Source: Gammaproteobacteria bacterium (GTDB taxonomy: Bacteria; Pseudomonadota; Gammaproteobacteria; GRL18). From it: a stretch of 62,255 nt of DNA. Each line of letters opens with the position of its first letter. Positions within the stretch are counted from its first letter, which is position 1. The notes under the pieces were generated by a model. The model was not told the DNA's origin, did no database searches, and worked only from the letters and a program-made list of their open reading frames with translations. Positions 4,744-8,463 of this stretch are shown here, piece by piece. Location: positions 1 through 62,255 of the forward strand of contig JADGEK010000010.1 of NCBI GenBank assembly GCA_016744395.1, in the 5' to 3' direction. Both the position numbers and the translations under genes were made by a program.

Positions 4744-6315
4744 TTACTTCTTGTCTTCAGTGTCTGTTTTATCAGTTGTACCTGATTCAACATTTGTTTC
4801 AGTAGCACCTTCTTCAGCAGGACTTTCGTCTGCAAACCAAGGAGCACGTGCTGTCATAATTAACTCACCTGCTTGTTTTTCATCCATTTCCTGGATTTCA
4901 AGCAAATCATCAATGGCTTGTTCAGCCAAGTCTTCCATTGAAATAATGCCTCTGGAAGCCAATTGATGAGCCAACTGCTCAGTCATACCATCCATTTCTA
5001 GTAAATCCGTTGCCGGTTCAGAATCACCTAACTGTTCTTCATCAGAAATTGCCTTGGTAAGAAGCACATCTTTTGCACGTTCTCGTAAAGCCATAACAAT
5101 TTCTTCGTCAAGGTCTTCAATTTCAAGCATTTCCTGAAGAGGAACATATGCGACCTCTTCAAGGGATGTGAAGCCTTCGTTTAAAAGAATGATGGCTAAA
5201 TCTTCATCAATCATTAAATCTTCAATTAATTGATTGAGCAAATTCTGAGTTTCTTCATCACTCTTGTTTTCGGCATCTTCAACCGTCATTACATTCAAGT
5301 CCCAACCTGTCAGTTGTGACGCTAATTTAATATTTTGACCATTTCGACCAATAGCCTGTGACAATTGAGATTCATCAACGGCAATATCCATTGAATTTTT
5401 TTCTTCATCAACGACAATCGATTTTACTTCTGCTGGAGACATGGCATTAATAACAAATTGAGCGGCATTTTCATCCCAAAGAATGATATCTACTCGCTCT
5501 CCCGCCAGTTCGTTTGAAACCACTTGAACACGTGAACCGCGCATGCCAACACAAGCACCAACAGGATCGATTCTGTCATCATGCGCCTCAACAGCAATTT
5601 TAGCACGTAAGCCAGGGTCACGTGCTGCTTTATGTATCTGGATTAAACCTTCCCCAATTTCAGGCACTTCAATTTTGAACAGTTCAATCAAATAGTCCGA
5701 TGAAACACGGCTTAAGCTTAACTGAGGACCTCTTGACTGACTGGCTGCTTCATAGAGATAACCTCTGATACGGTCACCGTTTCGAACTGGCTCTCTTGGG
5801 ATCATGTCTTCTCTTTTAATGACCGCATCGATGTTGTTACCAATATCGACAATAACGTTACCACGCTCTATGCGTTTAACAATACCTGAAAGTAATTCTC
5901 CAATGCGTTCCTGGTATTCATCAGCTACTTTCTTGCGCTCTGCTTCACGTACTTTTTGTACAATAACTTGTTTGGCTGTTTGAGCTGCAATACGACCGAA
6001 TTCAACTGAATCAATAGGTTCTTCAATATAATCACCAAAGGCGATTCCAGGATTATCATCCACAACACGAGTAAATAATACTTGTTTATCGTAGTGTTCA
6101 AAAGGTTCCGTTTCATCATCAAGGACTAACCAACGGCGGAATGTTTCATAGTCACCAGTTTCACGGTCAATTGAGACTCGGACATCAATCTCTTTACCAC
6201 TTTTTTTCTTAGTAGCAGAGGCTAATGCAGTTTCAAGGGCATCAAAAATAATCTCTTTTTCGATACCACGTTCATGTGATACAGCATCAACGACCAGAAG
6301 GATTTCTTTGCTCAT
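4744..6315 (-). CDS. nusA: Transcription termination/antitermination protein NusA
   Basis: 523 residues. NusA binds RNA polymerase and RNA and controls pausing, intrinsic termination and antitermination. The N-terminal polymerase-binding domain (about 1-125), an S1 domain (about 135-200, [16 protein letters not shown]), two KH domains ([13 protein letters not shown] and [15 protein letters not shown]) and two acidic helical repeats (about 355-500) are all visible. The tail is acidic and unconserved. The gene lies between rimP (59 bases upstream) and infB. NusA autoregulates its operon in E. coli; the promoter-terminator module upstream of rimP would suit similar control, which is inference. 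Confidence 0.97.
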
Positions 6316-6374: not shown

Positions 6375-6836
6375 TTAAAATTTAGCGACAATATTTGCTT
6401 TATCGATATCAGAAAATGGTATCGATATGGATTCATTTTCAACATCAAATATGATGTTGTTATTTTCAATAGCAGTGATTACACCTTTAAATTTTCTTTG
6501 ACCATTTTCAAGTTGAGGACGTATGGTTTTAAACTTGACTTCTTCGCCAATAAACTGCTCATATTGTGACAATTTAAACAGCGGTCTATTTAAGCCTGGA
6601 GAAGATATTTCAAGTGAATACTCACTGGCAATTGGATCTTCGACATCTAATACAGCACTAAGCTGACGGCTCACATCAGCACAATCATCAACTCCAACAC
6701 CATTCTCTGTGTCAATAAAAACTCGTAATATTGAGTGGCGCCCTTGCGAGATAAACTCAAGCCCAACAAATTCATAATCCATCGAAGTGACAACAGGCTC
6801 TAGCAGGTTTTCTAATTGTTGTGTCTTAATTGCCAT
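6375..6836 (-). CDS. rimP: Ribosome maturation factor RimP
   Basis: 153 residues, standard length. RimP acts in early maturation of the 30S subunit. Family segments visible are LLEPVVTSMDYEFVGLEF, LRVFIDTENGVGVDDCADVSRQLSAVLDVEDPI and LEISSPGLNRPL, followed by the small SH3-like C-terminal domain. It is the first gene of the nusA-infB operon, as in E. coli, but the tRNA gene that precedes it in E. coli is absent. A hairpin terminator lies 107 bases upstream of its start, so its leader may be subject to readthrough control. Confidence 0.95.
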   Translation of the reverse strand: MAIKTQQLENLLEPVVTSMDYEFVGLEFISQGRHSILRVFIDTENGVGVDDCADVSRQLSAVLDVEDPIASEYSLEISSPGLNRPLFKLSQYEQFIGEEVKFKTIRPQLENGQRKFKGVITAIENNNIIFDVENESISIPFSDIDKANIVAKF

Positions 6837-6891
6837 TCTTGCTGTCTCTGGTCTTATTCATGGTATTTTGAAAACAATTTAATAACTATTG

Positions 6892-6919
6892 TAAGGTGTA
6901 AACTAATTAAGGTGTAAAC
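6892..6919. repeat. 12-base direct repeat, 16-base period, upstream of rimP
   Basis: TAAGGTGTAAAC occurs at 6892-6903 and again, exact, at 6908-6919, separated by 4 bases. On the minus strand each copy contains TTTACA, which resembles a -35 element; with TACAAT (minus, at about 6887-6892) the upstream copy gives a promoter-like pair with a 19-base spacer. It could therefore be a tandem operator or part of the rimP promoter. Confidence 0.5.
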
Positions 6920-6941
6920 GTTAAAAATAATCTTACACAAA

Positions 6942-6963
6942 TAAAAAATGGGCCAAAGGCCCA
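6942..6963 (-). terminator. Intrinsic terminator upstream of rimP
   Basis: On the minus strand TGGGCC-TTT-GGCCCA (6949-6963) is followed directly by six T. The stem is all G-C/C-G except the closing pair and the loop is three bases, so it is a strong Rho-independent terminator in that direction. It ends either an independent small RNA started at about 7116, or a leader transcript of rimP-nusA-infB, or the transcript of the HPP-CBS gene. Confidence 0.75.
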
Positions 6964-7116
6964 CTCTAAAATATCCATTCATCCCATTAAAACGAAATAG
7001 GAATGAATGGAATGGAAGATAATGTTGTTATCTTCCAATGAATACGATAAATAAATAGAAATATAAAGAAATAAGCAATAAAAAGTCACTTCTTTTATAT
7101 GGCCTGTTATTTATTT
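6943..7116 (-). ncRNA. Candidate small RNA or attenuated leader of the rimP-nusA operon
   Basis: The interval runs from the start site predicted by a near-consensus promoter to an intrinsic terminator, about 174 bases. From its 5' end it has an A/U-rich single-stranded part, a hairpin with a 9-base perfect stem GGAAGATAA/TTATCTTCC (7014-7036), a hairpin with an 11-base stem containing one mismatch (6975-6985 with 7000-7010), then the terminator. No coding frame with a proper ribosome binding site is present. I do not recognise a known RNA family. A GGCCA near the 5' end (7100-7104) could pair with the UGGCC of the terminator arm, which would allow an antiterminated form; that is speculation. 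Confidence 0.4.
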
Positions 7117-7122
7117 GGCTAG

Positions 7123-7151
7123 ATTATAGGGGCATATTACATGCATAGCAA
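7123..7151 (-). promoter_or_regulatory. Strong sigma-70-type promoter, orphan, upstream of rimP
   Basis: The minus strand reads TTGCTA (7146-7151), a 17-base spacer, then a perfect TATAAT (7123-7128). The predicted start is near 7116. It points at rimP, 280 bases away, with an intrinsic terminator in between. Confidence 0.6.
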
Positions 7152-7281
7152 GCTCTTTATGACTAAAGTACCGACTCACTTTATAAGGCAACAGCTCAGA
7201 GAGTAAAGAATAAACATTAATCCATAAAAATTGCCTATAAATCAATTATGGCAAGGAGTTTATTATCGTTTAACAATACAG

Positions 7282-8463
7282 CTAAACAGTGACATTTTGA
7301 AAAGCCAACAATAGGTTTTTAGGGGTTATAATGCCACAAATCTTATCTTCAGCATTCACCACAGGAATATGATGAATATGGTGTGTATAAAAAATTTCAA
7401 AGAGTTCAAGAATATGGGCATTCTCATCAATTGTGACTGCAGGCTTAGCCATTAAATGACCAGCATATTCAGGTTTATGAGTATGACTACTATTTGTTTT
7501 TAAAACAAATTCAGACAGTTGTGCAATAATATTTGAGTTTGAGTTTGAATTAACTGAAATCTGATTCAAAAAATCATCCATACTAATAACGCCCAGCACA
7601 TAGCCCGCTTTATCTGTCACTGGAAAGGCATGCACACGATTTTCAATAAGAAGTTTCCATACCTGTTCAATATCCGTATCATAATCAACGCTAATGACAT
7701 TTTCAGTCATAATGTCACGACATAAGATTTCACCCATTTTTTTCTTATGGGTATGCATGAGAGAGAGATTAAATATTTTATTTAAATCATCCTCTGACAC
7801 ATCCACAAATACATCCAAATCAGTTAATGCGTCATGTAAATCTGAGCGATGTATGAGGTTAGGACGGTTAATTGATTCACTATTACTGGCTTTTGGCCCA
7901 CTTAGAGGGGAATCCTTTTGCTTTAACACATCTCGAATACCATTCGGATAGCAACGATTAGGAATCAAATTATTAATAATCAAAGCCCAGATCAGCATAA
8001 CAATGATATTTAAAACAATTGGAGTGAGCATATACATATAACCCAGCTCAGTTATTGCACTTCCTCCCACAACAGCGGTGAGTGCTGTGGCACCGCCTGG
8101 TGGATGCAGGCAACGAGTAATATACATAATAAAAATAGCTAAGGATACAGCGATAGCAGAGGCCATAACAGGATCAGAAATTAATTTAGCCACACTGATG
8201 CCCACAAAGGCTGAAAACAGGTGGCCTGCGGCAAAAGACCAGGGCTGAGACAGTGGCCCCTTAGGTACAGCAAATAGTAAAACTGCTGAAGCACCCATTG
8301 ATGCCACAACCCAGGGTAAAGATTCCTGGTCTAAAAAAAACTGACTAATGGCCATAATAAGACCAATACCAACCAATCCAGCAATCGCTGAAATAGCCTT
8401 TTCTTGCACAGAAACCGTCGAAGAGCCAGGTCCAAAGAGCCTTAAAATATTTCGTAAAATCAT
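7282..8463 (-). CDS. HPP family membrane protein with a CBS domain pair
   Basis: 393 residues. The first about 165 residues form the HPP integral membrane domain: several hydrophobic helices and the family signature around residues 118-135 (TRCLHPPGGATALTAVVGG). Residues about 245-390 are two CBS motifs (CRDIMTENVISVDYDTDI... and HLMAKPAVTIDENAH...), a module that usually binds adenine nucleotides. HPP proteins have been linked to nitrite transport in plastids, but the bacterial substrate here is unknown. It is a single gene, divergent from the HDOD gene. A TTGACT/TAAAAT pair at 8539-8565 with a short 15-base spacer may be its promoter. Confidence 0.85.
   Translation of the reverse strand: MILRNILRLFGPGSSTVSVQEKAISAIAGLVGIGLIMAISQFFLDQESLPWVVASMGASAVLLFAVPKGPLSQPWSFAAGHLFSAFVGISVAKLISDPVMASAIAVSLAIFIMYITRCLHPPGGATALTAVVGGSAITELGYMYMLTPIVLNIIVMLIWALIINNLIPNRCYPNGIRDVLKQKDSPLSGPKASNSESINRPNLIHRSDLHDALTDLDVFVDVSEDDLNKIFNLSLMHTHKKKMGEILCRDIMTENVISVDYDTDIEQVWKLLIENRVHAFPVTDKAGYVLGVISMDDFLNQISVNSNSNSNIIAQLSEFVLKTNSSHTHKPEYAGHLMAKPAVTIDENAHILELFEIFYTHHIHHIPVVNAEDKICGIITPKNLLLAFQNVTV

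Follow-up and report, generated by a model that had tools for sequence, protein, structure and literature searches.

The rimP-leader was described by Naville and Gautheret in 2010 as the most ubiquitous attenuator (PMC2965389). It is defined by a conserved GGGc...gCCC terminator and a T stretch at a distance of 4-130 nt from rimP, with no visible antiterminator, and NusA was regarded as the best candidate for its regulator (PMC2965389). In E. coli, the leader of metY-rimP-nusA-infB carries a tRNA-Met gene, the terminators t1 and t2, and RNase III sites, and transcripts of the rimP-nusA-infB operon increase when termination by NusA is impaired (PMC6511841). According to a 2025 review (PMC12288461), which cites Mondal 2016, NusA of B. 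subtilis controls its own expression by stimulating termination in its leader. A paper on RNA 3' ends in P. aeruginosa mentions neither rimP nor nusA.

The present study examined a 62,255-nt stretch of gammaproteobacterial DNA (the window). An earlier note on this sequence had claimed a minus-strand promoter, two hairpins, and a terminator with no protein or tRNA gene, and had offered two readings, an uncatalogued small RNA or an attenuator in the operon leader. We consider it very likely that the region described there (6943-7151) forms the rimP-nusA-infB leader and contains the known rimP-leader attenuator.

Layout of the locus and comparison with described leaders

On the minus strand, the rimP leader region comprises, in order, the promoter, hairpins HP1 and HP2, the terminator, and the rimP start at 6836. 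rimP (6375..6836, minus strand; Pfam RimP_N, 2e-29, and RimP C-terminal SH3, 4e-16) is the first gene of the operon, and nusA (4744..6315, minus strand; NusA_N, 9e-36, and KH_5, 9e-29) is the presumed source of the feedback. The upstream neighbor, an HPP/CBS gene (7282-8463), lies on the same strand as rimP and ends at 7282. No open reading frame of at least 60 aa was detected on either strand within 6837-7281, no tRNA gene was found in the gap ahead of rimP or anywhere in the window, and no Rfam family reached its gathering score in this gap. Names that appeared in the window at a permissive Rfam threshold (MicF and Bp1_162) were at the chance level. The whole leader folded at -55.9 kcal/mol versus -28.2 +/- 3.7 kcal/mol in shuffled sequences (z = -7.5). 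These searches, together with the sequence itself and its conservation, bore out the composition given in the earlier note, including the absence of a tRNA gene from the leader.

The terminator (6939..6967, minus strand) consists of the stem AGAGTGGGCC-TTT-GGCCCATTTT at 6967-6945, followed by the T run TTTTTTATTT, which ends at 6939. Its core, GGGCC-TTT-GGCCC-A-TTTTTT at 6962-6943, has the GGGc...gCCC stem and T stretch of the rimP-leader. The distance from the stem end (GCCC) to the rimP ATG is 113 nt, within the described range of 4-130 nt, and the gap between the T run and the rimP start is 106 nt. The downstream genes of this rimP-nusA-infB operon were confirmed. The window shows every testable sequence feature of the rimP-leader definition: the stem, the T stretch, the distance, the gene context, and no visible antiterminator. 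The differences from that description are a pair of covarying hairpins downstream of a conserved promoter and the lack of a tRNA gene (PMC2965389).

E. coli carries the same element ahead of rimP, AACTGGGCTTTAGGCCCTTTTTTT, with the hairpin GGGCTTTAGGCCC-T7. The two leaders are alike in having terminators ahead of rimP in an operon that is, probably also in the window, controlled by NusA; however, the window leader lacks the tRNA-Met gene of the metY leader, and the initiator tRNA is not found in it (PMC6511841). The terminator of the window corresponds to the second hairpin and T run of the Rfam model RF01770 (rimP, the Gammaproteobacteria rimP leader in its tandem form), whereas the upstream tandem CCCg...cGGG terminator of that model is absent from the window. 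RF01770 scores 102 bits in E. coli against a cut-off of 47 bits. In the window, it gave no match at the gathering score or at E <= 10, and not one of the 143 class genomes sampled passed the cut-off, even though the core hairpin is widely distributed. RF01770 covers the tandem E. coli-type form alone and misses most gammaproteobacterial rimP-leaders.

Conservation of the promoter, terminator, and hairpins

rimP was located in 54 of the 57 genomes searched, and the upstream stretches of the family and of seven class members were compared, with minus-strand loci turned. The sigma-70-type promoter TTGCTA-17-TATAAT (7123..7151, minus strand), with the conserved string AAAGAACTTGCTATGa...ATAT..cCCTATAATCTAGC, was kept in all 20 relatives having the stretch; the 17-base spacing was invariant and TATAAT was retained. 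Across these 20 genomes, the string CCTATAATCTAGC was almost invariant, and the promoter columns carried 1.2-2.0 bits versus approximately 0.27 bit per column upstream. The shared promoter string CCTATAATCTAG has a single other copy in the genome; no tRNA was found there, and this copy looks like coding DNA.

The terminator GGGCC-nnn-GGCCC-A-T6 was present ahead of rimP, with minor changes, in 22/22 family genomes with sequence, as was the looser core, GGGC-5-GCCC with a T run (22/22). In a scan of the 24 family genomes with a stricter pattern, 20 of the 22 matches were at rimP; the off-site matches were one in G000 and one in G005. A loose pattern matched 81 of 274 class genomes, and all nine matches outside the family with a known rimP position were directly ahead of rimP. 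A reversed-pattern control gave zero matches in both the family scan (24 genomes) and the class scan (274 genomes). The motif is specific for the rimP position, as in the described rimP-leader. The bases that follow the T run, ATTTGTGnAAGATTATTTT (window 6942-6923, minus strand), are conserved in the genus beyond the needs of a terminator.

By consensus alone, neither element exceeds chance in 4 kb: 3 terminator-like sites were found versus 3.1 expected, and 14 promoter-like sites versus 14.8 +/- 3.4 expected in this AT-rich sequence. Despite these counts, conservation indicates that the promoter and terminator are real, because they are kept in relatives (20/20 and 22/22, respectively), whereas the flanks carry approximately 0.25-0.3 bit per column. 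The leader body between them is unconserved in sequence (0.25-0.45 bit per column). Since the body and flanks are this variable, the conservation of the promoter and terminator does not merely reflect close kinship.

HP1 (7013..7037, minus strand) was predicted by folding to have 10 pairs and the loop CAACA, and HP2 (6974..7011, minus strand) to have 15 pairs with one bulge. When the whole leader was aligned with MAFFT, RNAalifold recovered the terminator as the sole structure because the middle of the leader is not alignable by sequence; for this reason, the stems of 15 genomes were aligned by hand to count covariation. On this alignment, which leans towards pairing and omits G010, G016, G018, and the near-identical G017/G021/G022, the HP1 core was paired in 57 of 60 cells with both-sided changes at all four pairs, and the HP2 closing stem (CTGTTC/GAACAG and variants in relatives) was paired in 89 of 90 cells with both-sided changes at five of six pairs. 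Owing to these paired cells and both-sided changes, HP1 and HP2 very probably exist in most members of the lineage. The 85 nt preceding the terminator also folded better than shuffled sequences (mean z = -2.6 in 22 genomes; z = -5.9 in the window), while the more distal 5' part of the leader stood out far less (mean z = -0.8). The earlier note had proposed stem conservation in relatives as a check, and it was found for the terminator and for both hairpins, except in G010, which has no hairpins. In G010 (L013), a natural deletion has left a 69-nt leader in which the promoter and terminator alone are kept; its terminator is weaker (-7.7 versus -13.5 kcal/mol).

Termination, read-through, and alternative explanations

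The gap between the T run and rimP is 29-41 nt in seven family members (G004, G012, G013, G020, G019, G016, and G018) and 18-46 nt in several class members. These gaps (18-46 nt) are too short for a promoter, and, thus, the rimP mRNA must pass the terminator in several genomes. This obligatory read-through points to a leader attenuator rather than a stand-alone small RNA, as does all of the comparative evidence.

We propose that transcription starts near 7116 and that the polymerase would then make a poorly conserved leader of approximately 80 nt and the two hairpins before reaching the terminator at 6967-6939. Some polymerases would stop there and release a short RNA (6939..7116, minus strand, approximately 178 nt, with the start placed from the -10 hexamer), and the remaining polymerases would read through into rimP, nusA, and infB. 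NusA would stimulate termination at this site, such that a high level of NusA lowers the expression of its own operon. This NusA feedback is most likely at the present leader. It is consistent with the literature (PMC2965389; Mondal 2016 as cited in PMC12288461), from which we infer it. The B. subtilis nusA leader similarly has a terminator in the leader of a NusA operon; however, NusA dependence is stated for B. subtilis in the review, whereas for the window it is proposed by analogy. The terminated leader may build up in the cell as a short RNA. Where the gap is longer, as in the window (106 nt), there may be an additional weak promoter that either lies between the terminator and rimP or overlaps the T run, and polymerases arriving from the HPP/CBS gene upstream could also transcribe the operon.

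A classical attenuator, in which HP2 alternates with an antiterminator pairing to the 5' arm of the terminator and is switched by a ligand, a ribosome, or a protein, appears unlikely. Pairing between the 5' arms of HP2 and the terminator is possible in G011, G002, G015, G008, and the window (-9 to -13 kcal/mol), the position of HP1 and HP2 is conserved with covariation, and some Gammaproteobacteria were reported to have a second terminator in tandem, for which an antiterminator was proposed (PMC2965389). However, over 21 genomes, shuffled leaders paired just as well (mean z = -0.14 +/- 0.25), and in G005, G012, G004, G014, and G020, the pairing fell short of the shuffle average. Since no conserved antiterminator pairing was found in this comparison, HP1 and HP2 most likely insulate or stabilize the leader, or aid its processing, rather than switch the terminator. 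We also speculate, with considerable reserve, that the HP1-HP2 pair is a lineage-specific regulatory module that replaces the tRNA in the rimP leader and, in addition to NusA feedback, offers another means of influencing termination or mRNA stability, for example, through cleavage by RNase III or through a protein of the ribosome or of its assembly.

The small-RNA reading of the earlier note, namely, a trans-acting RNA with its own promoter and terminator that is unrelated to the control of rimP, is very unlikely. The unit of approximately 178 nt does run from promoter to terminator with stable hairpins, and the Salmonella rimP leader was named among ProQ-bound small RNAs derived from attenuators (PMC5391140), so the terminated RNA may exist. 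However, the interior is unconserved and offers no conserved sequence able to act in trans, G010 has dropped both hairpins and retains the promoter and terminator alone, and several genomes have no room for another rimP promoter. Furthermore, the terminator stays ahead of rimP class-wide, including at loci where tRNA-Met occupies the leader in place of the hairpins. The element is also not uncatalogued because it was already described as the rimP-leader. Between the two readings of the earlier note, the comparison selects the leader attenuator, on the strength of a terminator tied to rimP across the class, the lack of promoter room, and the unconserved body.

It is highly improbable that the element is just the ordinary terminator of the HPP/CBS gene and that rimP is transcribed independently after it: the gene is on the same strand and the scan gave no other minus-strand terminator between its end at 7282 and rimP, but a conserved promoter lies between the gene and the terminator, the upstream content varies among relatives while the promoter and terminator persist, and several genomes leave no space for a promoter downstream of the terminator.

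The absent tRNA gene and its meaning for the lineage

No tRNA was found in the window or ahead of rimP in any of the 23 family loci examined (L002-L024); tRNA-Met(CAU) was present there in 7/7 class loci examined (L025-L031). In the genome of the window, the tRNA-Met(CAU) gene is located behind nuoN and a DUF2818 gene. In the class member G042, the sequence just before the tRNA is, by eye, the end of a DUF2818-like protein, followed by the tRNA and rimP. It is likely that the tRNA and the rimP operon became separated, which would have left the leader as a promoter, hairpins, and a terminator. The absent tRNA-Met and the hairpin pair are the lineage-specific traits of this leader.

At the tRNA locus of the genome of the window, which lies on another contig (L106:2576-5703, G000 contig C211), tRNA-Met(CAU) behind nuoN-DUF2818 is followed by an insertion of approximately 2.95 kb with integrase-like reading frames. 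The insertion is delimited by 57 nt that nearly duplicate the tRNA 3' end, together with trailing repeats, and resembles a small integrative element located at a tRNA gene of the initiator type.

The mechanism itself has been described before, and the present study adds its probable occurrence in an unstudied gammaproteobacterial lineage. In this lineage, the promoter and terminator core of the rimP-nusA leader is kept without the usual tRNA gene, which fits the terminator being the regulatory part.
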